Assembly (NCBI GenBank): GCA_016432325.1
Contig: CP066684.1
Coordinates: forward strand, 62,001-126,000
Source of the DNA: Candidatus Aenigmatarchaeota archaeon
GTDB taxonomy: Archaea; Aenigmatarchaeota; Aenigmatarchaeia; PWEA01; JACQIF01
DNA length: 64,000 nucleotides
Reading direction: 5' to 3'
This document shows positions 39,127 to 57,019 of the stretch, one piece after another. Each line of letters begins with the position of its first letter. Position 1 is the first letter of the stretch. The position numbers were made by a program, and so were the translations under genes. The notes under the pieces are model-generated. The model was not told where the DNA came from. It made no database searches and worked only from the letters and a program-made list of their open reading frames with translations.

Positions 39127-39732
39127 TTAGAGCAACGCCAGCGCGGCCCCTGTAACAATCGGTATCGTCACGTTATCGTCTATTGGAAAGTCGAACGCTT
39201 CTACGAGGCTCGAAACGAACGCTGCCGCGATGGCAAGGCCTATAGGCGCAAAAAAATAGGAGACGCCGAGAACGGAGAAGAACATCGCCGCCGTGCCTTC
39301 CCAGCTCTTGTGGTTGCTGATGAATCTGGGAAGCTTGTGAGTGCCGTGATGGACGCCGACGAGAGTCGAAACGGAATCGCCTATGGACAACGCGACGATG
39401 GAGAGAGTCGCGATCTGCGGCGCAAACAATATCATACTCGCTCCGATGCCGAGACCGAATGTCATCGCGCCCTTCATCGGCCGCACGTTCGGGCGTTCGC
39501 ATGCCTTTACAATAGTACAGACCGCGTCTTCTGCGAGGCTCAACGGCCAAGGCACGTATCTCTGAAGCGCCTTGCGGCGCATGAAGAATTCGGAGTACAA
39601 TAAAGAGAGCCCCGTTGCCAGAATGAGCAGCATACCCATTGTTTTGAAGTCAATGCCCCACGGTATCAGTACAAGCAGGATGCCGCTCATGTGAATGAGC
39701 TGCCTGGAAAACTCGCGCCTGTTGACTGTCAT
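39127..39732 (-). CDS. Dolichol/phytol kinase-like membrane protein
   Basis: A 201-residue membrane protein of the SEC59/DGK1/VTE5 polyprenol kinase family, which phosphorylates lipid alcohols with CTP or ATP. The start REFSRQLIHMSGILLVLIPW and the central SIGDSVSTLVGVHHGTHKLP followed by NHKSWEGTAAMFFSVLGVSY are family motifs. About six membrane segments are expected. It may supply lipid carriers for surface glycosylation. It is divergent from the LamG protein. Confidence 0.85.
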   Translation of the reverse strand: MTVNRREFSRQLIHMSGILLVLIPWGIDFKTMGMLLILATGLSLLYSEFFMRRKALQRYVPWPLSLAEDAVCTIVKACERPNVRPMKGAMTFGLGIGASMILFAPQIATLSIVALSIGDSVSTLVGVHHGTHKLPRFISNHKSWEGTAAMFFSVLGVSYFFAPIGLAIAAAFVSSLVEAFDFPIDDNVTIPIVTGAALALL

Positions 39733-39765
39733 ACGCTTAATAATCGGCCTTTGAATATAACCGAT

Positions 39766-40839
39766 ATGCGTCCGAAGGGAGTCTCGCCTGTTATTGCGTC
39801 CATAATCCTCGTTCTGATAGCGATAGCCTCAGGGGCCGCTTTCCTGACTTTCACTGGAAGACTCGCCGGGCAGTCGCAGGCCGCGGGAGAAGAACAGACT
39901 GTGCGAGCAGTGGAACTCACGGCCACCACATTCACCATAGGCTCTGTGAAAGACCAGCGCATTTTCGTAACGAACACAGGCGGCGCGGATATCGGCACCA
40001 ACAGCCTCGACGTGCGCATCGACGACACGCGCGTCAACTATACGCAGGACGAGACGATAGAAAAGGGCGGCTCCGGTACGATAACGCTTGCCGGCTTGTG
40101 GAGGTTCGGTCTTGGAGAGCATACGCTGAAGGTTTCTGGAGCGGCCTACTCGGTGACGAAACAAATCAGAATCGTGCCCGCGGACGGGCGCGTGCTGGAT
40201 TTGCGTTTTGAGGAAGGTTCAGGCACGGTCGCCAACGATTTGAGCGGCAACGGCAATACAGGAACGCTGACCAACGAACCGGCATGGACGAAAAGCACGC
40301 CTTCTCGGAGCTCGCAGAACGCGCTCGGATTTGACGGGAACAACGACTATGTCAGCATTCCTGACAGCCAGCTGTTCAACATAACGTCGATAGATTTCAC
40401 GATAGAAGGCTGGGCGTACGTGCCTGCGGTCGGCGCAAACGGCTACGCAATATCCAAGGGCGAGTCGGGCTACTCCCCGCCGGCGACCAGCATGTGGTAC
40501 GTGTACGTAACAGAGAATGGGCCGAGCCTGAGCAGGCGCGCATTCGGGGCGGGCAGCGACGAGAGCATAGCAGGCCCCACCGTGTTGCATGGCATAGTCG
40601 GCAAGTGGTTCCACTTCTCCATCTCCCGCCAAGGAAGCACGTACACGCTGTACCAGAACGGAGTCACTACCGGCACCGCCTCGACAGCCAACGCGCCTTA
40701 CAGCAACACGCAGCCGCTCTGGATAGGCGCCAGAAAACACGCCGGCACGACCTACGCGTTCGAGGGGACGTTAGACGAGATTCGTATCTACAACCGCGCG
40801 TACACTCCAGAACAGCTCTACGTAATGGAAGAAGTCTGA
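39766..40839 (+). CDS. Pilin-anchored LamG-domain surface protein
   Basis: A 357-residue protein. The N-terminus MRPKG-VSPVIASIILVLIAIASG is an archaeal class III (prepilin) signal, cleaved after Gly5. Residues about 40-140 form a beta-sandwich (FVTNTGGADIGTNSLDVRID). Residues about 145-357 form a LamG/concanavalin-like domain (DLRFEEGSGTVANDLSGNGNTGTL ... GTLDEIRIYNRAYTPEQL). ATG 39766 is about 26 nt from CTTAATAAT, so the mRNA is likely leaderless. Probably displayed on or as a pilus to bind glycans or another cell; that role is inference. Confidence 0.88.
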   Translation: MRPKGVSPVIASIILVLIAIASGAAFLTFTGRLAGQSQAAGEEQTVRAVELTATTFTIGSVKDQRIFVTNTGGADIGTNSLDVRIDDTRVNYTQDETIEKGGSGTITLAGLWRFGLGEHTLKVSGAAYSVTKQIRIVPADGRVLDLRFEEGSGTVANDLSGNGNTGTLTNEPAWTKSTPSRSSQNALGFDGNNDYVSIPDSQLFNITSIDFTIEGWAYVPAVGANGYAISKGESGYSPPATSMWYVYVTENGPSLSRRAFGAGSDESIAGPTVLHGIVGKWFHFSISRQGSTYTLYQNGVTTGTASTANAPYSNTQPLWIGARKHAGTTYAFEGTLDEIRIYNRAYTPEQLYVMEEV

Positions 40840-40883: not shown

Positions 40884-41657
40884 TTACTTCTTGCCTTTCT
40901 TCTCGGTCTTGACGCCTTCCACGATGCGCGCCAGTTCGCGCACGTTGTCCGTCAGCGCCGGCAGGAAGTCCTTGAACGCGCGTTCCACAGAACTGACGCG
41001 TCCTTCCAACGACTGCAAAGATTCGCTGGTTTCGGTCAACAGCGTCTTCATCTCCGCCTTCTCCGTGTCTTGATTATCCATCATCTCGTTGAGCTTCCCT
41101 TCCAGAGAGTCCATCCTCTCCATCGATGCGCCGTAGAGGCGGTCCAGTTCCGCGAGATGCGCTTCGACGTCTTTCCACTTCTCGTTGATTACCTCTTCGA
41201 TAAGCTCTTCGAGAGCGACCTCCTCGTGCGCTGTCATTTCGACAACGCCTGCGCCTGACGGAAGCTCCTCGAGCTCTCTGGGATACTGTTCCTGAGGCAT
41301 CTGTATGCCGAAATCGTCAGGAGGCGTCTGCGCCTGCGGCGCGGGCGGTGGCAGAGGCCCTTGCGGAGGAGCAGGCATCCTCTGCATCTGTAGAGGAGGA
41401 CCCTGAACGCGCGGCATTGGAGGAGGGGAAGGCATGCGCAGTGCTTGCTGAGGCGGCGCCACGGGTTGCTGAATAGCGGGCTGCGGCGCAACGTCGCCGC
41501 CGACGGTGAACTTCAAGACGCGGTTTAGCGCCTTCGCAACCTGTTCGTTGGAAAATCCTTGTGACCGTAAGGTCGTTATTATCTCGCGCTCGCTGCGGCC
41601 TTCAGACGCGAGTCTCTGGACCTCTTCGACCGGCACACGCTCTTCCTGCTGTTCCAT
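40884..41657 (-). CDS. UBA-like, Pro-rich, coiled-coil protein
   Basis: A 257-residue soluble protein with three parts. Residues 1-50 look like a UBA/CUE-type three-helix motif (GRSEREIITTLRSQGFSNEQVAKALNRVLKF). Residues about 55-115 are rich in Pro, Gln and Met. Residues about 135-250 are coiled coil (LEELIEEVINEKWKDVEAHLAELDRLY ... SLEGRVSSVERAFKDF). No membrane segment. It is paired with the coiled-coil gene at 41788 and divergent from the pilus genes, so it may be a cytoplasmic pilus accessory, in the way ArlC/D/E proteins serve archaella. This is inference. Confidence 0.75.
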   Translation of the reverse strand: MEQQEERVPVEEVQRLASEGRSEREIITTLRSQGFSNEQVAKALNRVLKFTVGGDVAPQPAIQQPVAPPQQALRMPSPPPMPRVQGPPLQMQRMPAPPQGPLPPPAPQAQTPPDDFGIQMPQEQYPRELEELPSGAGVVEMTAHEEVALEELIEEVINEKWKDVEAHLAELDRLYGASMERMDSLEGKLNEMMDNQDTEKAEMKTLLTETSESLQSLEGRVSSVERAFKDFLPALTDNVRELARIVEGVKTEKKGKK

Positions 41658-42239: not shown

Positions 42240-42365
42240 GCATGTCCTTCCCATGTAATGTTCTTTAACCCGCCATAAAAAGGTTCTAAAAGGTTTAACG
42301 CGCGGCGCGGTACGCTTAAAGCAACAGCTTTAAAGGTTAATTAGCCGTTGTGCGAAAATCAACAT

Positions 42366-44006
42366 ATGCGTCTCAAGGGCATCTCGGGCCTTATGGTTGC
42401 CATCTTCCTGACGCTGATAGCCGTAGGACTGGCCTTCGCTTTCCTTGTCTTCGGTCGTTCAACTCAGGAGACCTTCGAAAAGGAGGTAGGCGGAGGAGTG
42501 GAAGGGCAGATAAGCTCTCTGCAGAGCGGGTTGGCAATAGCGAACGTCAACGCGAACAACGTCACTGTGAAGAACACCGGTCGCACGAACCTCGACGTCT
42601 CTAAGATTGACGTGCTTCTGGACGGGAAAAAGGCGTCGACGTCCGCGACAGCTGCCACGATTGTTCCGGGCGGCACTGCGGTCCTAACGTTGACGGGTTT
42701 TGTTCCTGGTGTGCATGCAGTTCGTGTGACAGGACCCGGAGGCGTCGGAGACGAAGGCGACTTCGGAGTCGCACCGTCTGGCGTCGTCGCGCTGTGGGAT
42801 TTTGAAGACGAAGACGCGAATCCGGACGATTCGGTCGGGACGAACAACGGCAGACTCAACGGTTCGACCGTGCTGCTCTTGCACTTCGACGAGGGCGCCG
42901 GAACAAAGGCTTACGACTCGACAAACTACAAGAACGACGGCACGTTTGTGAATAATGCTCTTTGGGGAGCCGGAGTGTCCGGCAACGGCGTGAAGCTCGA
43001 CGGCGTCGCCGCCAGCATTACGGTGCCGAATTCGCCTTCAGTAAACAATATTGGACTGTTCACAACAGAGGCGTGGTTCAGGTGGGACGCCCAAGGAGTC
43101 TCTCAGGTTCTCGTAACAAAATCAGACGCCCATCTCTACATAAGCGGCGCAAACGTGCTGAGCTCGTACTTCGGGGGATCCCCGTGCGCTTCCGGCGTCT
43201 CAATATCCAGAGGAGCGTGGTACCATAGCGCCGTAACTTTTGACGGCACCAACGTGAGGATTTACGTCAACGGGGACCTCAAGGCCACGTGCGCGCGGAC
43301 AGGCAACACAGGCACCGCGAACCTATTCGTCGGGCAGAACGGAATAGGCGGCCAGTTTTTCAACGGCACAATAGACGAGGTCGCGATACATGGGCGTGCA
43401 CTGTCTGCGGACGAAGTTGGTTCGCACTACGACGCGAAGCGCGCGCTGTTCTCCGAATACGTCAAGGGCTTCGCAGGAACGGCCGTGCGCTTTGACGGGG
43501 TTAATGATGATGTGGAAGTGCCCAAATCTGCCGCGCTCGATCCGGGCGCGCAGGTCAGCCTTGAAACGTGGATAAAGAGCGATCCGTCGAATCCCATGAA
43601 CACGTGCTGCCAGGGTCTTGTATCGACGGACTTCTACAACATCGGCGTGTCGACCGGCGGCGTTTATTTCGCCATAAGCTCGAACAGCGGAGCCAGCTAC
43701 CCCTTCACCGGCACGGTCGCGGTCTCCTCGGGCGTGTGGCACCATATCGTCGGAACCTATGACGGCACGGCTGTGCGGCTGTACGTTGACGGCGCGCAGG
43801 CGGCGAGCGCTCCGGCCTCTGGCGCGGTTTCGCCGATGATGGCCAACAGTTTCCTTACCGTGGCGTCCGAGGACGGTAGGACAGCATGCGGCGCTCAGTG
43901 CATAGGCGTCCGCTACTTCAGGGGCGACGTGCAATACGCCGCGGTCTACAATCGCGCCCTGAGTGCGCAGGAGATAAAATCCATATACGATGCATCCACG
44001 GCTTGA
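42366..44006 (+). CDS. Pilin-anchored protein with two LamG domains
   Basis: A 546-residue surface protein. MRLKG-ISGLMVAIFLTLIAVGLAFAFLVF is a prepilin-type signal with membrane helix. A beta-sandwich (VTVKNTGRTNLDVSKIDVLLDGK) follows to about residue 135. Two LamG-like domains occupy about 160-365 and 370-546; both end in a conserved element (DEVAIHGRALSADEV and AAVYNRALSAQEI). Cys pairs in each domain may form disulfides. ATG 42366 replaces the longer TTG option because it begins the signal. Likely a glycan- or cell-binding pilus component (inference). Confidence 0.88.
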   Translation: MRLKGISGLMVAIFLTLIAVGLAFAFLVFGRSTQETFEKEVGGGVEGQISSLQSGLAIANVNANNVTVKNTGRTNLDVSKIDVLLDGKKASTSATAATIVPGGTAVLTLTGFVPGVHAVRVTGPGGVGDEGDFGVAPSGVVALWDFEDEDANPDDSVGTNNGRLNGSTVLLLHFDEGAGTKAYDSTNYKNDGTFVNNALWGAGVSGNGVKLDGVAASITVPNSPSVNNIGLFTTEAWFRWDAQGVSQVLVTKSDAHLYISGANVLSSYFGGSPCASGVSISRGAWYHSAVTFDGTNVRIYVNGDLKATCARTGNTGTANLFVGQNGIGGQFFNGTIDEVAIHGRALSADEVGSHYDAKRALFSEYVKGFAGTAVRFDGVNDDVEVPKSAALDPGAQVSLETWIKSDPSNPMNTCCQGLVSTDFYNIGVSTGGVYFAISSNSGASYPFTGTVAVSSGVWHHIVGTYDGTAVRLYVDGAQAASAPASGAVSPMMANSFLTVASEDGRTACGAQCIGVRYFRGDVQYAAVYNRALSAQEIKSIYDASTA

Positions 44007-44049
44007 TATTTTATAGTGGTTCGTACATACGTGATAGGAGTTGCACGAA

Positions 44050-46311
44050 ATGGCAGACGCCGTCCCCGAAGCCCCGCCGAGATACGAGCTAAAAGACACC
44101 ACGCTGCGCGTGCGGCCTGCAGGACTTCTGTACGAGTCTGGCGTTGAGGACTCTGATGCGTGCATGGCGCAGGTCGTGGACGCGCTGGCGAAGAACAAGA
44201 GCGCGCAGAGCGTTGCGGTCGTGGGAACGCGCGAGTACGAGTACAGCCTTGAAGAGACGCAGATGCTCAAGGATGTCGCGCGCGCCCTTGAAGAGATAAT
44301 CCGCGGGGCGTATCTCAGCGTCCACACGCTCGGAGAGTACAGAGACTACGTCGCTGACGACTTTGCGTACGTGCAAGCGCTCGTGATGACGAAGCTCTTG
44401 GGCGACCCTCTGGGCGTCTACGTCGACCTCAAGCGCCGCACCCGCCACATCAACGTCCGCGCGCGTTCCGTGGAAGGCAAGCGAACGGAGGCGTACAACT
44501 CCCTTATGAACAACGTCATCGTCCCTGTCCTGCAAATATTGGAGAACACGTCTCTCGTGCGCAACGCGAAACCGTTCCTCACCGGCTACAAGATAGGCGA
44601 TCGATCGGCGTACCGCCAGCTTTTCCACCCGACGGTGCGGCCCGTATTCATGCAGACGCGCTACCAGACGGAGATGCCGGAAGGCGCGGAGATAGTGGAT
44701 CGCTATGCGCTTCGGGACGGCGTTGAAGTTGAAATCTACCGCGTACGCGGCTCCGTGCGCTACGTGTACCACGCGATTCCGCCTGAGTTCCGCCTGAGCG
44801 AGGATCAGTATACGATTCTGGACGCGGCCCGGCGCTATATGATAGAACACAAGCCGCGGGAGATCGAATTCGCAGACCCCGAACGCATGCGGGAGATCTT
44901 CGCGAACATAGGCCGCGATCTCGTGACGGACATAGCAAACCAAATGGGACTGTCGCTGACACGCGATGAGACGGAACGCCTGACGTCCATACTGACGCGC
45001 TACACGGCGGGTCTTGGAGTCCTGGAGATACTGCTCTCCGACGAGAAGATACAAGACGTCTACATCAATTCGCCCATCGGGCAAAATCCGATATACGTTT
45101 TCCATCAGGACTATCAGGAGTGCGTAACGAACTTCATACCGACGCAGGAAGACGCGGAGTCCTGGGCCACGCGCTTCCGCCTCGTCTCCGGACGCCCGCT
45201 GGACGAAGCAAATCCCGTTCTCGATACGGAAGTGGTCGTGCCGGGAGGACGCGCAAGGGTCGCGATAGTGACGCGCACGCTTTCGCCGCAGGGGCTCGGG
45301 TTCTCGCTGCGCAGGCACAGGGACGATCCGTGGACCTACCCGCTGTTCATACACCCGAAGACCAGATATTTCAACGAGTTGTTCGCCGGACTCATGTCTT
45401 TCATCGTAGACTATTCGCGCACGTTCTTGATAGCGGGCACGCGTTCGTCGGGCAAGACGTCGCTGCTCAACGCCTCGCTGCTCGAGGTGATGCGCAAATA
45501 CCGCATCGTCACTGTGGAAGACACGCTTGAAATTCCTGTCAACCGCCTGCGCGCTCTTGGCTACAACGTGGAGTCATTGAAGTCGCGTTCTGTGATAACG
45601 CAGGTCGAGACCGAATTGCCGGCGGACGAGGCGATACGCACGTCGCTGCGTCTCGGCGACTCTGTCCTCATAATAGGAGAAGTGCGTTCACTCGAAGCGA
45701 AAGCCCTGTACGAGGCGATGCGCATCGGCGCTTTGGCAAATACGGTCGCAGGAACGATACACGGCGACTCTCCTTACGGCGTGTTTGATCGCGTCGTGAA
45801 CGACCTCGGCGTTCCTCCCACCTCGTTCAAGGCGACGGACCTCATAATAATATGCAACATGATGAAGAGCGCCGACGGCATCCACCGCTTCCGTCGCGTG
45901 ACGAGCGTGACGGAAGTGCGCAAGCACTGGAAGAACGACCCCCAGGAAGAGGGAGGGTTCGTGCCTCTCTTGCAGTACTCTTCCAAGGAAGACATTCTCA
46001 AGCCGACGGACACGCTCCTGAACGGCGAGTCTTTCATACTCAACGAAGTCGCGTCGTCCGTGCGCGAGTGGTCGGGCAACTGGCAGGACGTCTGGGAGAA
46101 CATCCTCTTGCGCGGCAGGATAAAGAAAGCAATAACAGAATACGCGATCGCGAGCGGCAAGCCGGACTTCATGGAAGCGCCCTTCGTCGTCGAGTCGAAC
46201 GACATCTTTCACCTCGTTTCCGAGCAGCTGCGCGCGGAAACAGGCTCGATACCGGCGGAGCGCGCGTACAACGCGTGGTACGACTGGTTCAAGGCGCGCG
46301 TGAAGTACTAG
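44050..46311 (+). CDS. Type IV pilus/secretion ATPase (PilB/ArlI/TadA superfamily)
   Basis: Motor ATPase (753 aa) of an archaeal type IV pilus-like system. The N-terminal half (about residues 1-330) is a large specific domain. The VirB11-like core starts near LTRYTAGLGVLEILLSDEKIQDVYIN. Walker A is GTRSSGKTS near residue 462, the Asp box lies in RIVTVEDTLEIPV, and Walker B is LIIGEVRSLEAKALYEAM near residue 543. A His box occurs in AGTIHGDSPYGVFDRV. AGGAG lies upstream of ATG 44050. The platform protein is at 46728. Confidence 0.93.
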   Translation: MADAVPEAPPRYELKDTTLRVRPAGLLYESGVEDSDACMAQVVDALAKNKSAQSVAVVGTREYEYSLEETQMLKDVARALEEIIRGAYLSVHTLGEYRDYVADDFAYVQALVMTKLLGDPLGVYVDLKRRTRHINVRARSVEGKRTEAYNSLMNNVIVPVLQILENTSLVRNAKPFLTGYKIGDRSAYRQLFHPTVRPVFMQTRYQTEMPEGAEIVDRYALRDGVEVEIYRVRGSVRYVYHAIPPEFRLSEDQYTILDAARRYMIEHKPREIEFADPERMREIFANIGRDLVTDIANQMGLSLTRDETERLTSILTRYTAGLGVLEILLSDEKIQDVYINSPIGQNPIYVFHQDYQECVTNFIPTQEDAESWATRFRLVSGRPLDEANPVLDTEVVVPGGRARVAIVTRTLSPQGLGFSLRRHRDDPWTYPLFIHPKTRYFNELFAGLMSFIVDYSRTFLIAGTRSSGKTSLLNASLLEVMRKYRIVTVEDTLEIPVNRLRALGYNVESLKSRSVITQVETELPADEAIRTSLRLGDSVLIIGEVRSLEAKALYEAMRIGALANTVAGTIHGDSPYGVFDRVVNDLGVPPTSFKATDLIIICNMMKSADGIHRFRRVTSVTEVRKHWKNDPQEEGGFVPLLQYSSKEDILKPTDTLLNGESFILNEVASSVREWSGNWQDVWENILLRGRIKKAITEYAIASGKPDFMEAPFVVESNDIFHLVSEQLRAETGSIPAERAYNAWYDWFKARVKY

Positions 46312-46727: not shown

Positions 46728-48809
46728 ATGGCCGGCGATAAGAAGAAAGGACCTTCTCCGGAAGAGATAAGACGGGAAGAGATTACGCGAATCCTGCGGG
46801 AAGAACGCATGCGGCTGCCCGTGCGCGAGTCGCAAGCCGCTCCTAACACGGCGTTTACGAGTAGGGAGTACCAGACGTTCATGGCGGAGGAGCGCTTCAG
46901 GGAGAAGCCGACCCTGTACGAGCGCGCAGCGCGCCTCGCCGGCCGTCTGAATCTGGAGCCCGACGCCGATACGAAAAAGCAGATGGAAGAGAACATAAAG
47001 TTCGCGCATCTTGACGTTACGCCTGCCGGAGCGTTCTCCCTTGCAATAGTAACGCCGATGCTGATAGCGGTCTTCGCGACTCTCGTGTTCTTCCTGCGGG
47101 TCGTCGGACTCACGGAGACGATGACTCTGTTCATGGGTTCGATTATCGCGTTTTACCATCTCTACAACTATCCGAAGAGCGCGGCCAAGATATTCCGCGT
47201 CAAGGCGGCGTCCGAAATAATACTTGCAGTAATCTACATGGTCATCTACATGCGTTCGTCTCCGAACCTCGAGGGCGCGATTAGATACGCGGCCGTCAAC
47301 CTGACGGGCCCGTTGGCGTACGATCTTCGCAAGCTCCTGTGGGACGTCGAAACGGGAAGGTACGCGACGATGGAGGACGCGCTCGATACGTACCTCTTGA
47401 GGTGGAAGACCAACGAAGAGTTTATAGAGTCGATAAATCTGATTCGCAATTCGATGGAGCAGCCGGAGTCGCGGCGCCACGCGGTTTTGGACGAGGCGGT
47501 GAACGTCGCTCTTACAGGAACGCGGGAGAAGATGCAGAAGTATTCGCAGTCTCTGAGAATGCCTGTGACGCTCATCCACACGATGGGCATCATCCTTCCG
47601 ATACTCATACTGGTTATGTTCCCTGTTCTGATTTTGTTCCTGGGAAAGCAGCTGAACCCGTGGGTTCTCGTGATCGGTTACGACGTCGTGTTGCCGATAA
47701 TAATCTACCTGCTGATTATGCGCGTGATGGAGAGCAGGCCCGTGGGGTTCTCCGTTCCTGACGTGTCTCTGCATCCGAAGTTCACGCCTCTCGGCAAGGT
47801 GAAAATCGGGGGGAAGCTCTACCAGATGTGGCCGTTCACAGCGGCGCTGACGTTCGCGCTCGTCGGGATATGCGCGTATTTCCTGGTGCCCGTGTACGAC
47901 AAGATAACCCTTGAGGCCCTAGGCCTTTCTGTGGCCGTGACCTGGGCGCTGGGCATCGGCATGATGGTCCACTTCCTGACCGGCACATCAGGACTGCTCA
48001 AGATACGCGGAGAGATAAAGAAGATTCAGGATGAGTTCGGCGAAGCACTGTTCCGTCTCGGAAACACGCTCTCTCTTGGAGCGCCTCTTGAAAAGGCGAT
48101 AGAAGACACCGTGCAGAAGTCCGCGGACCTGTCGATATCCGAGCTCTTCAGGCGCGTATTGAACAACGTGCGCCAGGGCCAGCTAAGCTTCGAGGCCGCG
48201 TTCTTCGACAAGCGCTACGGCGCGATATGGGACTATCCTTCGAAACTGATAATCAACGTGATGCACATCGTGATTGAAGCGACAAAGAAAGGGGTGCGCA
48301 TCGGCGCGAACTCGGCGATCGCAATTTCAAAATACATCCGCCAGATCCACGCCATAGACGAGGATCTGCGCGACATGCTTTCCGAGGCGACGACGAGCAT
48401 GCGATTCATGTCCGCGTTCCTCGGGCCTATGATAGCCGGCGTCACGGTCACGATGGCCGGCGTGATGATGCTGATATTCCAGCAGCTCGGCGCGAGTATC
48501 GCGGGCCTGCAGAACACGAACGTCCCGGGCTTCAGCCAGCTGCTGATAGGAGGCTGGGGAGAGTCCGTGGCGCAGATGCCCATCGCGGTCTTCCAACTCG
48601 TTGTTGGAATCTACATCCTTGAGATGATTTACCTCCTGTCGGTTCTGGAGATAGGAATAGAGAGCGGACCCGACGACATCGTGCAGATGCGCCACACCGC
48701 GGCGTGGTCTATATTAATAGGACTTTTGGTATACAGTTTCAGCCTCGTGATAACATGGTCCATCTTCGGAGCGTCTATACAATCCTTGATAACAGGAGGC
48801 GCGCTTTAG
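46728..48809 (+). CDS. Pilus/secretion platform membrane protein with two T2SSF domains
   Basis: Inner-membrane platform (693 aa) of the TadC/ArlJ family. After a charged cytoplasmic 95 residues, membrane pairs (TPAGAFSLAIVTPMLIAVFATLVFFL; TLFMGSIIAFYHLY) flank a first T2SSF domain (SSPNLEGAIRYAAVNLTGPLAYDLRKLLWDVETG). A middle membrane block follows (MGIILPILILVMFPVLILFLG). A second T2SSF domain (FRLGNTLSLGAPLEKAIEDTV) precedes more spans near the C-terminus. It partners with the ATPase at 44050. The last 55 nt overlap the possible start of the first microprotein. Confidence 0.92.
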   Translation: MAGDKKKGPSPEEIRREEITRILREERMRLPVRESQAAPNTAFTSREYQTFMAEERFREKPTLYERAARLAGRLNLEPDADTKKQMEENIKFAHLDVTPAGAFSLAIVTPMLIAVFATLVFFLRVVGLTETMTLFMGSIIAFYHLYNYPKSAAKIFRVKAASEIILAVIYMVIYMRSSPNLEGAIRYAAVNLTGPLAYDLRKLLWDVETGRYATMEDALDTYLLRWKTNEEFIESINLIRNSMEQPESRRHAVLDEAVNVALTGTREKMQKYSQSLRMPVTLIHTMGIILPILILVMFPVLILFLGKQLNPWVLVIGYDVVLPIIIYLLIMRVMESRPVGFSVPDVSLHPKFTPLGKVKIGGKLYQMWPFTAALTFALVGICAYFLVPVYDKITLEALGLSVAVTWALGIGMMVHFLTGTSGLLKIRGEIKKIQDEFGEALFRLGNTLSLGAPLEKAIEDTVQKSADLSISELFRRVLNNVRQGQLSFEAAFFDKRYGAIWDYPSKLIINVMHIVIEATKKGVRIGANSAIAISKYIRQIHAIDEDLRDMLSEATTSMRFMSAFLGPMIAGVTVTMAGVMMLIFQQLGASIAGLQNTNVPGFSQLLIGGWGESVAQMPIAVFQLVVGIYILEMIYLLSVLEIGIESGPDDIVQMRHTAAWSILIGLLVYSFSLVITWSIFGASIQSLITGGAL

Positions 48810-48934
48810 GCGGAAAGGGAGACATTTCGATAGGACTGACCAAGTGGCTTGAGCTGATCGTAGCGGCTATCGCCGTGGTCTTGGTGCTGATAATGGCGTG
48901 GGGCCAGCTGTGCCATCTCGCCAACGCGTGTTAG
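48755..48934 (+). CDS. Microprotein 1, pilin-like single span
   Basis: About 59 residues. RRRALGGKG-DISIGLTKWLELIVAAIAVVLVLIMAWG gives a basic lead with KG before a membrane helix, as in prepilin peptidase sites. The end GQLCHLANAC carries two cysteines outside the helix. It overlaps the platform gene by 55 nt if ATG 48755 is used; other starts are possible. First in a run of six tiny membrane proteins. Confidence 0.6.
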   Translation: MVHLRSVYTILDNRRRALGGKGDISIGLTKWLELIVAAIAVVLVLIMAWGQLCHLANAC

Positions 48935-48946
48935 GTGGTTATCATC

Positions 48947-49020
48947 GAACTATTGAAACTGCGTCTCGGAACGCCGCGTTCCGAGTATTTCGAACCGAAG
49001 TTCGAAAAGTTTCAAAGTTC
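48947..49020 (+). repeat. Three-stem cruciform before microprotein 2
   Basis: An outer stem pairs GAACT (48947-48951) and TTGAAACT (48953-48960) with AGTTTCAA (49008-49015) and AGTTC (49016-49020). Inside are hairpin CTCGGAACG/CGTTCCGAG (48965-48985) and hairpin TTTCGAAC/GTTCGAAA (48988-49007). The structure fills the gap before the AGAAGGTG binding site of the next gene. It is built from the same arm motifs as the four-hairpin element at 41685. Confidence 0.8.
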
Positions 49021-49039
49021 CTCCAGAAGGTGCGTATAA

Positions 49040-49183
49040 ATGGAACTACCGACAGGAATAATAGTAGCGGTCGTCCTGATAATAGCAATGGCAGTCTTGC
49101 TGCTGTCTGCCGGCGGACAGGTGGCGCAGGCCGGCGTCAAGGTCATAAGCGACTGCGGAATATACTGCGCTATAAAAGGGTGA
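49040..49183 (+). CDS. Microprotein 2, single span
   Basis: A 47-residue protein. MELPTGIIVAVVLIIAMAVLLLSAGGQ is a membrane helix whose first residues resemble mature pilins downstream (LELPTNTLIV and IELPVNALII) but lack the prepilin leader. The outer end holds a cysteine pair spaced C-x-I-Y-C (DCGIYCAIKG). A good ribosome binding site, AGAAGGTG, precedes ATG 49040. Possibly a pilus or envelope subunit. Confidence 0.7.
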   Translation: MELPTGIIVAVVLIIAMAVLLLSAGGQVAQAGVKVISDCGIYCAIKG

Positions 49184-49187
49184 TTGA

Positions 49188-49379
49188 ATGGCGTACAACT
49201 GGACGACCATCGCGTTGGCTGTCATACTGTTCCTGATAGTCGCCGTGGTCGTGATAGCCGGCACAGCGCAGGCAGGACAAGCGGTCGGCCAGTCAGGCGG
49301 CGGAGGCGCATGCAACATCTACTGCGTGATGAGAGACGCGATACAGCCTCTTCCGGCGCCGGGCTTCTGCGGGTGTTGA
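49188..49379 (+). CDS. Microprotein 3, single span with Cys-rich tail
   Basis: A 63-residue protein. WTTIALAVILFLIVAVVVIAG forms the membrane helix, then a Gly/Gln-rich linker and a tail with four cysteines (ACNIYCVMRD and GFCGC). The C-x-I-Y-C element matches microprotein 2. It begins 4 nt after that gene. Disulfides outside the membrane are likely. Function unknown. Confidence 0.7.
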   Translation: MAYNWTTIALAVILFLIVAVVVIAGTAQAGQAVGQSGGGGACNIYCVMRDAIQPLPAPGFCGC

Positions 49380-49380
49380 T

Positions 49381-49587
49381 ATGAAGTTACGTCTCAAAAA
49401 TGGCGCGTCGGGCCGGCAAACGGGCGCAAAAGGAGATTCGAACATAGTCTGGTGGCTCGGCGCATTCCTGATAGCGTTGATCGTTCTGGTTGTTATCGTG
49501 CTGCTCACGCAGAACACGCAGAGTACGGCGCAGGCCGGTTGGGAAGGCGTAAAGGACCGTCTGCGGGGCATAACGGGGTTGGGCTGA
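49381..49587 (+). CDS. Microprotein 4, pilin-like single span
   Basis: A 68-residue protein. A basic, Gly-rich N-terminus ending GAKG-DSN precedes the helix IVWWLGAFLIALIVLVVIVLL, which fits a prepilin-type cleavage site. The outer part is short (TQNTQSTAQAGWEGVKDRLRGITGLG) and lacks cysteine. It starts 1 nt after the previous stop and overlaps the next gene by one base (TGATG). Confidence 0.7.
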   Translation: MKLRLKNGASGRQTGAKGDSNIVWWLGAFLIALIVLVVIVLLTQNTQSTAQAGWEGVKDRLRGITGLG

Positions 49588-49757
49588 TGGACTCCAGAGG
49601 AGACGTGCAGTACTTCATGCTGGCCATAGTATCTTTCGTTATAATCCTTCTCGTGGCGATATCCCTGCTGATACTGTTCGGCGGTGACGCGGGCAAGCAG
49701 ATGGAATGCGCCATTGGATTGTTCCAGGCCACGGGCTGCCCGACGCAGGTGACGTAA
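49587..49757 (+). CDS. Microprotein 5, pilin-like single span
   Basis: A 56-residue protein. MDSRG-DVQYFMLAIVSFVIILLVAISLLILF looks like a short class III leader followed by the pilin helix. The end holds two cysteines (MECAIGLFQATGCPTQVT). Both its start and stop overlap neighbouring genes by one base, so translation is probably coupled along the array. Confidence 0.7.
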   Translation: MDSRGDVQYFMLAIVSFVIILLVAISLLILFGGDAGKQMECAIGLFQATGCPTQVT

Positions 49758-49921
49758 TGGTGTTCTCGGCGGCAGAAAGCAAGTTCGCGCTCGTGATAGG
49801 GATAGTCGTGATGCTCATAGTCATCGCGGGAATCTTCATCTTCCTTTCCACGCAGCTCTCGCCCGAGTTCGGAACGTACGTCAATAACCTGAACTTCAAC
49901 TTCGAACTGCGGCACAGATAG
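49757..49921 (+). CDS. Microprotein 6, single span
   Basis: A 54-residue protein. FALVIGIVVMLIVIAGIFIFL is the helix, preceded by MVFSAAESK and followed by a short aromatic/Asn-rich outer end (YVNNLNFNFELRHR). It is the last of six consecutive tiny membrane genes; the next gene has its own promoter 70 nt downstream. Confidence 0.65.
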   Translation: MVFSAAESKFALVIGIVVMLIVIAGIFIFLSTQLSPEFGTYVNNLNFNFELRHR

Positions 49922-50004: not shown

Positions 50005-50454
50005 ATGGCCGCTCTCAAGTACATAATAATAGCTGGTCTTCTCGGCGCCGCGCTTGCCGTGGCGGGCTTCGCGGCGGCGACAGGCGGCTTCGAGAGGGAG
50101 GCGGAGCGCAGCGCGCTAATCGCGGCTTTCCCGATAACAGAACGCATAACCTCGGGCGTGAACCTGATGCTCTCTCAGGAGGAAACGGGTTTCATCGAGG
50201 TCGCTCTGCCGCCGATAAGATGCGAGATTGCGTTCAACGAGCCTTATGTCGAAACGACCGTACGCAGAGGCGATATTTCTCAATCGTACGGCCTGTTCGT
50301 TTTCGGTGGCGTCAATCTGAACGTGAATCCGATAGAATGCCCGACAGAGGCCGAGCTTAAGGACGGCAAGAAGGTGCGCGTCAATATTACGCGCATTGAC
50401 GTCGGCGGGCCAGTGTTCGTCAAGAGAGTTGTCCTGGAGGGGACGGTCTTATGA
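50005..50454 (+). CDS. Anchored extracellular protein of pilus locus
   Basis: A 149-residue protein with an N-terminal membrane helix (YIIIAGLLGAALAVAGFAAA) and an outer beta-rich domain of about 110 residues with two cysteines (PIRCEIAF, NPIECPTE). CTATTAAAT at 49974-49982 is about 27 nt before ATG 50005, indicating a leaderless mRNA that starts a second transcription unit of the locus. Not recognised; a minor pilin-like role is inference. Confidence 0.72.
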   Translation: MAALKYIIIAGLLGAALAVAGFAAATGGFEREAERSALIAAFPITERITSGVNLMLSQEETGFIEVALPPIRCEIAFNEPYVETTVRRGDISQSYGLFVFGGVNLNVNPIECPTEAELKDGKKVRVNITRIDVGGPVFVKRVVLEGTVL

Positions 50455-51224
50455 AAGGCGCTGCTCTATCAAAGCCGATCTTCCTCTTTTTCGCAATTCT
50501 GTTCTTCGTGATAATGATGGTCTTTCTCATAGCCAGCTTCAACATCACGCCTACTGAAATCAATACCGCATCGAAAGAGATCGTTGCCGTTGACATACTT
50601 CACAGGCTGACGTCGTCGGATGCGTGCCTGAGTACGGGAGAGGCAGGAATACTTGACGCCGTCAAACTTCAGGACGCGGTCAACGGCGGCAGGGAACATA
50701 GTTGCGCGTACGTTCCTAATGCGGGCTACCACGTGCACGTCACAGACCTTCGCACGGATGACGAGTGGGCTTTCGGTTACGACACACCCGACGACTCTAT
50801 AGAAACGAAACACGCAGTCGCAATACAATACAACGACGGTTCTGTGAATCCCGGAGAGCTCACGTTCGCGTACTCGTACAGGGACGCGGATCTGCTTTTG
50901 TTCATAACAGGCCAGGCTTCGCAGACGTTCTACAGAGGGGACAATTACGACAACAGGAGAAAGGCCGAGTTCACGATAGGAAAGAGAGAGACCTTCAGCA
51001 GAAACGGCGTGTACAACGAAGTCTCGACTCTCTGCATGACGCGTCAAGACGAGGAGGAGAGATGCAAGGACCTGCCTGCCGGAGTGCGTGTCATTGTCGA
51101 TGGAGTGTTGCCGGCATACCCTTCTGTTCTTGAACAGACCAAAAACAAAATAATAACGTGGAGGGAAGGAGACGTGGTCCATGTGGTCGTCTGCGGCGTC
51201 ACAAGCTGCGGAACATACGGTTGA
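50451..51224 (+). CDS. Anchored extracellular protein of pilus locus
   Basis: A 257-residue protein. MKGAALSKPIFLFFAILFFVIMMVFLIASF is a short lead plus membrane helix. The outer domain (about 220 residues) has several cysteines (SDACLSTG, EHSCAYV, STLCMTRQDEEERC, VVVCGVTSC). The start overlaps the previous stop by 4 nt. This layout resembles minor pseudopilins with large head domains, but no family is recognised. Confidence 0.72.
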   Translation: MKGAALSKPIFLFFAILFFVIMMVFLIASFNITPTEINTASKEIVAVDILHRLTSSDACLSTGEAGILDAVKLQDAVNGGREHSCAYVPNAGYHVHVTDLRTDDEWAFGYDTPDDSIETKHAVAIQYNDGSVNPGELTFAYSYRDADLLLFITGQASQTFYRGDNYDNRRKAEFTIGKRETFSRNGVYNEVSTLCMTRQDEEERCKDLPAGVRVIVDGVLPAYPSVLEQTKNKIITWREGDVVHVVVCGVTSCGTYG

Positions 51225-51228
51225 TATC

Positions 51229-51678
51229 ATGAAAGGACAGATAGTTACGAATCTCGTGATGATAGCGATACTGGCGATAATGGCAGTCGCCTCCATAGGC
51301 TTCTTCATATGTGTGAACGTCGGCGACGCTTGCAGCCTCGCCAAGAAGGGCGGCTTTGAGAGCGAGGTGACGGAGAACTTCCTGACAGACTCGCAGGCGC
51401 AGTCGGAGCTCAACGCATATCTTGCCGTTAAAGACATGGACGATAACGTCGCGACTCTCTGGCTGCTTTACAAGACTACAGGCGACGCCGGCTACAAGGA
51501 CCGCGCCAAGACCGTTTATGAAACGATGTTCGCCAACAGGCAGACGCGTCTTTTCGTCGATAGAGAATCGTTTGCGACGCGAGACTGTTCTCCTGAATTG
51601 AACGACCCGTCGGCCACGCGCAAGATTCCGCTGCCGTCGGGCCAGCAGATGTCAATGACGCTGGGGTTGTGTCGATGA
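51229..51678 (+). CDS. Pilin-like anchored protein
   Basis: A 149-residue protein starting MKG-QIVTNLVMIAILAIMAVASIGFFI, a minimal prepilin-like leader and helix. The outer part is helical (VTENFLTDSQAQSELNAYLAVKDMDDNVATLWLLYKTTGD), with Cys at both ends (NVGDACSLA, TRDCSPE, LGLC). ATG 51229 follows the previous stop by 4 nt. Not recognised. Confidence 0.72.
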   Translation: MKGQIVTNLVMIAILAIMAVASIGFFICVNVGDACSLAKKGGFESEVTENFLTDSQAQSELNAYLAVKDMDDNVATLWLLYKTTGDAGYKDRAKTVYETMFANRQTRLFVDRESFATRDCSPELNDPSATRKIPLPSGQQMSMTLGLCR

Positions 51679-53981
51679 GTAAAGCGCAGATAGCAGAGAT
51701 GACGTGGATAGCCATAGGCGGCATACTGATGGTCGCCCTCGTGTTGGGTTTGACCGTTTCTGCGATTCTGGCCGGCCAGGCAGGCGACGCAGAGGACGAG
51801 GCGATAGGAGTCAAGACCGCGCTCGACTACTCCGACGATTACGGCTCGCTCGCGGCTCGTTCGTCGCTGCACGGCTCGCTATACGAGAACGGTTTGAACG
51901 GCGGCTTCTACACCGCCGCGCCGCCTGCAGGCACGGAAACGATAGGCGGCGTTGCGTACGTCTACTGGAAGAGGGGAGACACTACAGGAGTCCCATCCGC
52001 AGGCACTATCACAAAAGAACTGCATGCGGGAACGCAAGCCCTTTTTTCAAGCCACATTTCAAATGAGGGCGTTGAACTGCGAACTCCTCCGGGAGCCGCA
52101 GTCGCGCTCGATCTGGACACGTCAGGAGTTTCTGGGGAGTTCCGTGCTGAAATCGTAGACCGCGGCAAGGCGCCTGCGATAAGGATAGGAGGCGACGGCC
52201 GCGTCGCCGAAACAGAGAGCGTCGCAGCCCGTTACCTGCGGCTGCGCAGGGTCGGCGAAATACTCACGCAGCACTCCTCGGGTCTCATCGATTCGCGCGT
52301 CCACGATGCCGTTCGGAGCGTTCAAGACCACCAGACGAACAGCGAGAGCACATGCGGACCTTCTTCATGTGACGCGTCGCTCAACTCCTGCGGCGGCCAG
52401 GACCGCTTGTGCCCGGGTAACCAGATAAGCGGAGACCCGCACGCGGCCGCGCAGAGCGCCGTTACGTCATTACAGAATGACTTGAACGCGCGGTTCGCGT
52501 CAGAGAACATCCGCTTCGAGATTTCAGTCGTGAAAAACGCCGTGAACAAAGTTCCGATAACGCATGTCGAGGACAACAGCGGCTCTGGAACGTACTATCG
52601 TTGGCATACGACTGAGACAGAGCCGGTCGAGACGTGCAGACCCGCAACGACAGCCGACAAATGCGCCAGCATAAAGGGCGCCGGCTGCTTGACGAGAAGT
52701 AAGTGTACTACGGAATCAGGCAAGCCGACGAGGACGCGCGAGTGCACAGGAGGGAAGGTGTGTTGCCTGCTGCCGCCAGAGACGTCGCCTCGCGTGTGCA
52801 CGACAGCTCCGGGATCCACGACTTCGGACTGTTCCGCGAACGCGGCATACGCATGCCCCTGCGCGTACTGCGCGAACGCGCATTATGATATGGCCTATCA
52901 GTACGACTACACAGTTCGCGTCAGCGTGATAGATTCGAATGTTCAACTACTGACAAAAGACGGCCTGCAGAATCCGAAGATGGTCTTCCTTGTGGAAGGT
53001 TTGCACGTAGACGACAACGCGTGCGGCAGCGACGGCCACGACTGCGGCGCGCCGTTTGCGTCCACCACGCCTCTGGAGTCGGAGACCGTGAACTCCATCG
53101 ATTGGCTTACAGGCGTCTCGGAGACGCCTACGTCTTCTGGAGAGATTCCTCCGGAACTCGGCGGTCCTGAAGACGCTGTGTGGTTCGCTTACAACAGCGA
53201 GTCTTACGCGTGCACTGACAACATCCCGCTCTCTGCCGCATACTTCCACGGCAACCGCACGGCGTTCTACGAAATCGGCTGGAGCTTCAACAACGACCAT
53301 CCGAAGACGGCGAACGTGACGGCCACAGTCGCCCGTTTCGACGCTCATTCCTGCAACAATTTCGCTTCCTCGACAGACATCCGCACAGCCGCGTTCCATC
53401 TTGGTTCAGCGCGTGCGGGCACCGCGAACTCGGGGCTCTACACGATACGGATGAGCGCCTCTGATCTCAACGCATACAGGGACGGCTACGTTGTGAAGGT
53501 CGCGGTGGATTTGTACGACTCGGATACAGGCGCGCGCCTGCTGCAGAACACTACAACAGGATACTACGCCGTCTTGCCTGTCCCGAATTCGGAGTACAAC
53601 GTCAGGTGGACCAACCACTCGGACGGCGTCGCGCACTTCTACAAGGGCTTCACGCAGTCAGGGACATGGAGCAGCGCTGCTGCTAGGTGCGATGCGGACG
53701 AGGCCAGCCTTGCAACAATAACAAACGACGAGGAGAACACGCGAGCGTTCCTCGCCGCAGGCGTGCCCTCGAGCGGCCGATATTGGATTGGGGCCACGGA
53801 TACGGCTGCAGAAGGAACGTGGATATGGGTTACAGGAGAGCTCTGGAGCTTCACGAAATGGGCAGGCGGGCCGAGCGCCGAGGACTGCGCCGCCCTGATA
53901 GGTTCTACGACCACGCAGGCCAGCTACTGGGAATCTCTGGGTTGCGGTGTGCCCCAGACGGGCTTCGTCTGCGAAAAGTAA
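51675..53981 (+). CDS. Large anchored protein with C-terminal C-type-lectin domain
   Basis: A 768-residue protein. The N-terminal helix (MTWIAIGGILMVALVLGLTVSAIL) anchors it. A long outer region follows, with a Cys-rich stretch at about residues 220-400 (CGPSSCDASLNSCGGQDRLC; KVCCLLPPE; CPCAYCANAHY). The last 115 residues are a C-type-lectin fold: CDADEASLATITNDEENTRAF, RYWIGATDTAAEGTWIWVTGE, WAGGPSAEDCAALI, GCGVPQTGFVCEK. The EPN/QPD calcium-sugar triad is not seen, so ligand type is uncertain. It ends the transcription unit from 50005. Confidence 0.85.
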   Translation: MSKAQIAEMTWIAIGGILMVALVLGLTVSAILAGQAGDAEDEAIGVKTALDYSDDYGSLAARSSLHGSLYENGLNGGFYTAAPPAGTETIGGVAYVYWKRGDTTGVPSAGTITKELHAGTQALFSSHISNEGVELRTPPGAAVALDLDTSGVSGEFRAEIVDRGKAPAIRIGGDGRVAETESVAARYLRLRRVGEILTQHSSGLIDSRVHDAVRSVQDHQTNSESTCGPSSCDASLNSCGGQDRLCPGNQISGDPHAAAQSAVTSLQNDLNARFASENIRFEISVVKNAVNKVPITHVEDNSGSGTYYRWHTTETEPVETCRPATTADKCASIKGAGCLTRSKCTTESGKPTRTRECTGGKVCCLLPPETSPRVCTTAPGSTTSDCSANAAYACPCAYCANAHYDMAYQYDYTVRVSVIDSNVQLLTKDGLQNPKMVFLVEGLHVDDNACGSDGHDCGAPFASTTPLESETVNSIDWLTGVSETPTSSGEIPPELGGPEDAVWFAYNSESYACTDNIPLSAAYFHGNRTAFYEIGWSFNNDHPKTANVTATVARFDAHSCNNFASSTDIRTAAFHLGSARAGTANSGLYTIRMSASDLNAYRDGYVVKVAVDLYDSDTGARLLQNTTTGYYAVLPVPNSEYNVRWTNHSDGVAHFYKGFTQSGTWSSAAARCDADEASLATITNDEENTRAFLAAGVPSSGRYWIGATDTAAEGTWIWVTGELWSFTKWAGGPSAEDCAALIGSTTTQASYWESLGCGVPQTGFVCEK

Positions 53982-56074: not shown

Positions 56075-56380
56075 ATGTCCCGCAAAGGACTCGAACTGCC
56101 GACCAACACTCTCATAGTCATGGCCGTCGCAATCGTGGTACTGCTGGTCATGATAGTGTTCTTCACCAGCTCGTCGCAAACGTCCACCGGCGCCACAGAA
56201 CTGCAGAACCGCTTCCGTTCGGAATGCGTGACGTTCGTCAGCAGGAACTGTTGCGTGTCCGGGACGGACGTCACGTCCGGCACGTGCGACGCGTCTGCCG
56301 TGGCGCCGAGCGCAGGACTGGCCATCGGAACGACGGACGACACAAAGATAAAAGAGGCATGCTGCATAATCAAGCCATAG
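56075..56380 (+). CDS. Six-cysteine pilin A
   Basis: A 101-residue pilin-like protein. MSRKG-LELPTNTLIVMAVAIVVLLVMIVFF gives a clear prepilin site and helix. The outer domain carries six cysteines arranged C, CC, C, CC (SEC, NCC, GTC, ACC). The gene follows the propeller gene without a gap. It is the first of three tandem paralogues with the same cysteine pattern. Confidence 0.85.
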   Translation: MSRKGLELPTNTLIVMAVAIVVLLVMIVFFTSSSQTSTGATELQNRFRSECVTFVSRNCCVSGTDVTSGTCDASAVAPSAGLAIGTTDDTKIKEACCIIKP

Positions 56381-56388
56381 GTGTTTGG

Positions 56389-56682
56389 ATGTCAAAGAAA
56401 GGAATCGAACTGCCGGTGAACGCGCTGATAATCATGTTCCTGGCCGTGGTAGTTCTTGCCGGAGTCATCGCGATATACACGGGTGTCTGGCAGCCGTCCC
56501 AAAAGACGACGACGCAGGCCTCGGATTTCAACGCCGAATGCGCGAAGTACTCGGCTATTGGATGCTGTGGTGACGATACGCTGTCTGGATGCTCCACGCA
56601 GAAGAGCCAGGTCGTGAGCAAAGCATCGACGTTGGGAATAACGAGCGCGGCAGACGCCGTCAAGCGCTGCTGCGGCGAGTGA
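56389..56682 (+). CDS. Six-cysteine pilin B
   Basis: A 97-residue pilin-like protein. MSKKG-IELPVNALIIMFLAVVVLAGVIAIY is a prepilin site and helix, followed by six cysteines in the order C, CC, C, CC (AEC, GCC, SGC, RCC). It resembles pilins A and C. ATG 56389 is chosen because it begins the leader; the frame extends upstream without other signals. Confidence 0.85.
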   Translation: MSKKGIELPVNALIIMFLAVVVLAGVIAIYTGVWQPSQKTTTQASDFNAECAKYSAIGCCGDDTLSGCSTQKSQVVSKASTLGITSAADAVKRCCGE

Positions 56683-56686
56683 TACC

Positions 56687-57019
56687 ATGGACAACAAGGG
56701 AGCTGAGATAGCGGTCAATGCCGTGATAGTCATGGTGCTCGCGGTGCTGGTTCTGGGAGCGGCCATAGGAATCTTCACAGGAGTCTGGAACCCGGGCAAG
56801 AAGACCACAGAAGGCATAGGCGACTTCAGCTCCGCGTGCGGCTCTTTCGCGGCAGCCGGATGCTGCAGGGACCCGCCTGCGGGCGGCTCTCTGCCTGCGA
56901 CGTGTACGGACACCGCAACAGCCGGCACGCTGGCCAAGAAGCTGCTCGATGCGGCAGGCGGCTTGGGTCTTTCTGCGACAGATTTCCCCGCGGCAAAGGA
57001 AAGGTGCTGCAAGGGCTAG
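56687..57019 (+). CDS. Six-cysteine pilin C
   Basis: A 110-residue pilin-like protein. MDNKG-AEIAVNAVIVMVLAVLVLGAAIGIF forms the leader and helix. Its outer domain again has C, CC, C, CC (SAC, GCC, ATC, RCC), with a longer Gly/Pro insert between the first CC and the third element. It ends the surface locus. Probably a major or minor filament subunit; disulfides would stiffen it. Confidence 0.85.
   Translation: MDNKGAEIAVNAVIVMVLAVLVLGAAIGIFTGVWNPGKKTTEGIGDFSSACGSFAAAGCCRDPPAGGSLPATCTDTATAGTLAKKLLDAAGGLGLSATDFPAAKERCCKG

Follow-up and report, generated by a model that had tools for sequence, protein, structure and literature searches.

The locus described here raises the question of what six very small genes, arranged one after another, contribute to an archaeal pilus machine. 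It lies in a stretch of 64,000 nucleotides, hereafter the window (G000:C1:62001-126000), which is part of an 875-kb genome; judged by the platform protein of the machine, the closest named relatives are metagenome-assembled genomes of Candidatus Aenigmatarchaeota. The six microproteins (MP1 to MP6; Table 1) are encoded together with a pilus ATPase and a T2SSF platform. On computational evidence, we consider it fairly likely that they are headless pilin-type subunits, each reduced to its membrane helix and a tail of some 10-40 residues. They would work in a single archaeal type IV filament machine with the ATPase and platform encoded upstream and the headed minor pilins encoded downstream. We infer that their place in it is probably that of minor or initiator subunits, not of the major one.

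The initial annotation had described six open reading frames (ORFs) of 47-68 residues after the platform gene, with one hydrophobic helix each, and all six are indeed present. Its account of their sequence features was also accurate: MP2 and MP3 share a C-x-I-Y-C motif (CGIYC and CNIYC), two other members, MP1 and MP5, carry cysteine pairs, and KG or RG precedes the helix of MP1, MP4 and MP5. The head-to-tail order that it proposed applies to MP2-MP6, where stop and start share 1 base (MP4/MP5, TGATG; MP5/MP6, TAATG) or the spacing is of 4 nucleotides (MP2/MP3) or 1 nucleotide (MP3/MP4). It does not extend to MP1 and MP2, which are separated by 105 nucleotides with a palindromic element between them. 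MP1 overlaps the platform gene, whose last position is 48809, by its first 55 nucleotides.

Given the small size of the frames and the lack of family matches, they could be chance open frames or untranslated remnants. This explanation is contradicted by strand bias, by shuffled DNA and by purifying selection, and we regard it as scarcely credible. The DNA around the platforms of 103 relatives was fetched, and the census covers ORFs in these loci, within the phylum. ORFs of 30-95 residues with a strong N-terminal helix, located ≤4 kb downstream of the platform, were counted at 101 platform loci: there were 192 on the coding strand, 27 on the opposite strand and 3.7 in shuffled DNA. The starts of the ORFs are uncertain in many relatives. 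Pairwise ratios of non-synonymous to synonymous substitution rates (dN/dS), calculated for orthologues from three genera and a sister genome, were 0.04-0.58 wherever dS was unsaturated, with values of 0.24, 0.29 and 0.55 for MP4, MP5 and MP6, respectively. Because all measurable pairs fall in this range, the microprotein frames are under protein-level selection.

A search for the same array in relatives, as the initial annotation had suggested, found it phylum-wide, with the frames conserved. The array is thus a phylum-wide trait and no peculiarity of this genome. Leave-one-out profiles from nine order-level genomes assigned 24 of 39 microproteins to their own positional family, against 9 expected, with labels given by eye, which favours the result; the Cys family (5/5) and MP4 (8/9) were well recovered, and MP1 was inseparable by sequence (1/7). 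Four further T2SSF loci in this genome were checked for arrays; none was found, and larger pilin-like proteins are present there.

A [KR]G dipeptide before the helix marks the cleavage site in class III (prepilin) signals. It was found in 90 of 220 microproteins, compared with 22 expected and a maximum of 35 in 1000 shuffles of the N-termini, kinship among the sequences being uncorrected. None of the other dipeptides tested was comparable, the next most raised being [KR]K (37 versus 16). The FlaFind motif is [KRDE][GA][ALIFQMVED][ILMVTAS] (PMC4307647); a motif of this type with an uncharged stretch occurs in 70 of 220 microproteins, against 30 expected, and MP4 and MP5 pass the test for the motif plus helix. 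The KG helices are almost free of charge from about position +5, and the mature KG members have a median length of 48 residues. Starts of the form MKG or MKKG, which are common here, are acceptable because PibD is able to cleave engineered leaders of just 3-4 residues (PMC4187195). One A24 prepilin peptidase gene is present in the genome (PF01478, G000:C1:151095-151436, E 1.5e-15).

Linkage to minor pilins provides a second line of evidence. The families of minor pilins A and B comprise dozens of members across the phylum and were detected at 39 of 59 loci with microproteins and at 0 of 33 loci without them (Fisher p 4e-11). Among 22 genomes in which the platform is isolated or borders a contig end, 19 have a B-type match elsewhere, in some cases a weak one; in four of 12 such regions examined (L170, which has a contig break, L171, L178 and L179) microproteins lie upstream of the B-type match. 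In structure comparisons the best match of minor pilin A was a Thermus competence pilin (6qvf), and a weak one (Z 4.3, root-mean-square deviation 4.9, 65 residues aligned); XcpW gave Z 2.4. Foldseek returned nothing at E≤0.001 for minor pilin A and no significant match for minor pilin B. The likeness of minor pilin B to S3-type ribosomal proteins, which made up most of its structural matches (Z 5-5.6), was put down to a common arrangement.

This linkage also bears on the idea that the microproteins are fixed subunits of the assembly motor, that is, unprocessed helices bound to the platform in the membrane, comparable to the small accessory subunits found in transport complexes, which stay out of the filament. 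Such a role would agree with the start of MP1 inside the platform gene, with the frequent position of the first microprotein right after the platform and with the members that lack a leader and a class III site. It is difficult to reconcile with the strong [KR]G enrichment, with microproteins that stay with the minor pilins where the platform is apart and with the 33 platforms that have no microprotein nearby, and we consider it unlikely. Among the three options offered in the initial annotation (miniature pilins, helix-only filament subunits and motor-platform partners), the first is therefore supported by the class III motif enrichment, the minor-pilin linkage and the conservation of the frames. 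The last is weakened by the several genomes in which microproteins adjoin minor pilins, away from the platform.

Several observations weigh against headless pilin-type subunits. A search of Pfam and NCBIfam with the six microproteins and 32 relatives gave no match to a pilin family, only insignificant or low-complexity transmembrane matches (DUF7285/DUF7287 matches of MP6 and minor pilin B were below the cut-off and were not used). MP1 has the motif (KGDI) but carries K and E in the early helix and fails the helix filter. In MP2, MP3 and MP6 the helix is not preceded by [KR]G; these three are negative in the FlaFind-type test and are therefore not filed as class III pilins. Neither [KR]G nor a clear charge bias was seen in 129 of 219 microproteins, MP2, MP3 and MP6 included. 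Position +1 is Asp in MP1, MP4 and MP5, which is permitted by FlaFind yet unusual. Finally, only 6 of the 90 KG microproteins have Glu at +5, a residue whose rarity is common among archaeal pilins (PMC4471445).

The main difficulty lies with the leaderless members, which may be helix partners that stay uncleaved or else pilins whose first residue is already the mature one. As annotated initially, MP2 begins M-ELPTGII without a leader, and an in-frame TAA lies directly upstream. The six-cysteine pilins encoded at 56075-57019 read KG/LELPTNTL and KG/IELPVNAL, and the resemblance of MP2 to the former suggests a start at the mature residue. A bolder proposal is that headless pilins, of which half have no leader, make up the initiating or tip complex as a hetero-oligomer, with the leaderless ones starting at the mature residue and so bypassing the prepilin peptidase. 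We offer it tentatively and consider it less than likely.

If the microproteins are headless pilin-type subunits, MP1, MP4 and MP5 would enter the membrane in an N-in/C-out orientation, and the A24 prepilin peptidase would cleave them behind [KR]G, giving mature proteins of about 37-51 residues. MP2, MP3 and MP6 would be made without a leader and, presumably, would be inserted and join the others via the same hydrophobic helix. The ATPase-driven platform would bundle these varied helices with those at the N-termini of minor pilins A and B into a small hetero-oligomeric stub, which would serve as the start or the tip of the filament. We infer the cleavage, topology and polymerisation of the microproteins. 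Bacterial minor pilins prime assembly, as do CpaJ, CpaK and CpaL in the Tad system (PMC13170226). A set of different single-copy mini-pilins accompanied by two headed minor pilins would be more in keeping with a complex that primes or tips the filament than with a major subunit.

It could also be imagined that the microproteins are the main filament subunits and build a thin pilus of helices alone, in the manner of bacterial Tad/Flp pili. Their size equals that of Flp pilins (50-80 residues; PMC10934763), and the PilA filament is made of alpha-helical monomers (PMC13170226). However, the arrays hold several different single-copy members and no single repeated subunit, the Flp motif is absent, and both the headed six-cysteine KG pilins and pilins with laminin-G-type (LamG) domains are better candidates for the major pilin, which makes this explanation quite improbable. 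The six-cysteine KG pilins are probably the major pilins of the machine. Two KG-leader pilin-like proteins with laminin-G-type domains are encoded beside the ATPase gene (39691-40839 and 42348-44006).

Individual microproteins were also compared with their counterparts in relatives. A genome of the same genus (L043) keeps the ATG of MP1 at -54 and its KG/D site, and the ORF there runs on into a longer Cys-rich region; MP1 is a short form of the longer protein of this sister genome. The counterpart of MP2 in L043 reads MPVPTGL...CNLFC...GGC, and the MP3 family is recognisable in L043, L044, L046 and L011. Long proteins with the CxxxC...CxC pattern of MP3 and a KG-type or similar leader are encoded right after the platform in L009 (11111-12409) and L010 (11029-12342). 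This shared pattern is suggestive of a single family that comprises both long Cys-rich pilins and MP3-type microproteins.

The palindromic element between MP1 and MP2 has one other, partial copy in the genome (G000:C1:618919-618970), and a similar two-hairpin stretch lies between the MP5 and MP6 orthologues of L043. The spacer may represent a mobile palindrome, possibly tied to the shortness of MP1. Scanning it for a promoter or terminator with a bacterial model revealed nothing above chance.

The platform was found in 149 of 156 genomes of the phylum; a sequence search with it retrieved no PDB chain. In five relatives (L054, L062, L064, L067 and L072), the pilus ATPase gene carries stop-free in-frame insertions of about 1.4-1.5 kb. 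They sit at two conserved sites, near VED/TLELP and GEVRS/TEA, end with HN before T where the junction is readable, and are probable inteins. A coiled-coil protein encoded on the minus strand (40884-41657), divergently from the ATPase, is a possible cytoplasmic partner of the machine; L009 and L010 encode similar proteins in the corresponding position. Further downstream, the lectin-domain protein of the pilus operon (51669-53981) is a possible host-binding tip adhesin.

Table 1. Features of the pilus locus in the window; a slash marks the predicted leader cleavage site
Feature	Coordinates	Strand	Description
Secretion/pilus ATPase (T2SSE)	44041..46311	+	Pfam; nearest solved structures afGspE2 2oap, CpaF, FlaI
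Membrane platform	46728..48809	+	693 residues; Pfam: two divergent T2SSF domains in one chain
MP1	48755..48934	+	59 residues; leader GGKG/DISIGLTKW; one helix; C-terminal cysteine pair
Palindromic element	48935..49039		Two hairpins within an outer stem; fold z -3.6
MP2	49040..49183	+	47 residues; M-ELPTGII start; one helix; CGIYC tail; no leader
MP3	49188..49379	+	63 residues; one helix; CNIYC...CGC tail; no leader
MP4	49381..49587	+	68 residues; class III leader AKG/DSN; one helix
MP5	49587..49757	+	56 residues; SRG/DVQ; one helix; cysteine pair
MP6	49757..49921	+	54 residues; polar N-terminus of ~10 residues; one helix; no leader
Minor pilin A	50005..50454	+	149 residues; AlphaFold2 model (pLDDT 90.9): 57-residue N-terminal helix and beta head (lollipop)
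Minor pilin B	50451..51224	+	257 residues; MKG/AALS; AlphaFold2 model (83.5): N-terminal helix and alpha/beta head; phylum-wide
Pilin-like protein	51229..51678	+	149 residues; MKG/QIVTNL; FlaFind-type motif
Large lectin-domain protein	51669..53981	+	N-terminal helix and C-terminal C-type lectin domain (Pfam Lectin_C 6e-13)
Six-cysteine pilin	56075..56380	+	KG leader
Six-cysteine pilin	56389..56682	+	KG leader
Six-cysteine pilin	56687..57019	+	KG leader

Cultivated DPANN relatives of the phylum live by attachment to other archaea. Although nearly every genome of this uncultured phylum encodes the machine, no family model matches its subunits, and the microproteins are likely to escape gene callers. 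Named genes are now at hand for the study of DPANN surface structures.

Unannotated DPANN genes with signal peptides located beside FlaI/TadC have been predicted to encode diverse pilins (Makarova 2019, PMC6393860, Fig. 2A). Because of this prediction of diverse DPANN pilins near TadC, the kind of system described here is already known. In contrast to our locus, the part of that work considered here contains no headless array, conservation test or leaderless class for these ‘dark matter’ pilin islands. Within the limited part of the literature that was searched, neither the headless array nor its conservation across the phylum appears to have been described.

The machine resembles the archaeal type IV pili Aap, Ups, Bas and PilA (Makarova 2016, PMC4858521) in its VirB11/T2SSE-type ATPase, one-chain platform with two T2SSF domains, A24 peptidase, KG-helix subunits and operon with minor pilins. 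Unlike the pilins of these systems, the microproteins are headless, occur up to seven per locus, are leaderless in half or more of the cases, match no pilin family model and mostly lack Glu5. The BasABC proteins of the Sulfolobus bindosome are likewise small class III proteins encoded beside an ATPase/platform pair, and are proposed to assemble into a structure on the cell surface in which no pili are seen (PMC2910488). Bas is reported from S. solfataricus only.

Very short, nearly all-helix subunits encoded beside ATPase and platform genes are also characteristic of the Tad/Flp (type IVc) and Epd pili (PMC6668835, PMC10934763). Membership of the Epd (EppA) group was rejected: Gln at +1 was found in 12 of 90 KG microproteins and E5 in 6 of 90, and Q1 is present in none of MP1, MP4 and MP5. 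As to Flp/Tad, the microproteins are as small and helix-only as Flp/Tad pilins (47-68 residues, one helix). Membership was nevertheless rejected, the GxxxxE[YF] motif (E5 followed by Y/F; PMC6668835) being found in 0 of 90 KG microproteins and a TadB/TadC-type split platform being absent, with a single 693-residue chain carrying two T2SSF domains in its place. Moreover, several different mini-subunits are present here, whereas Tad/Flp systems have one major Flp. As headless pilins, the microproteins would parallel the Tad/Flp mini-pilin independently, and they suggest how little of a pilin is needed.

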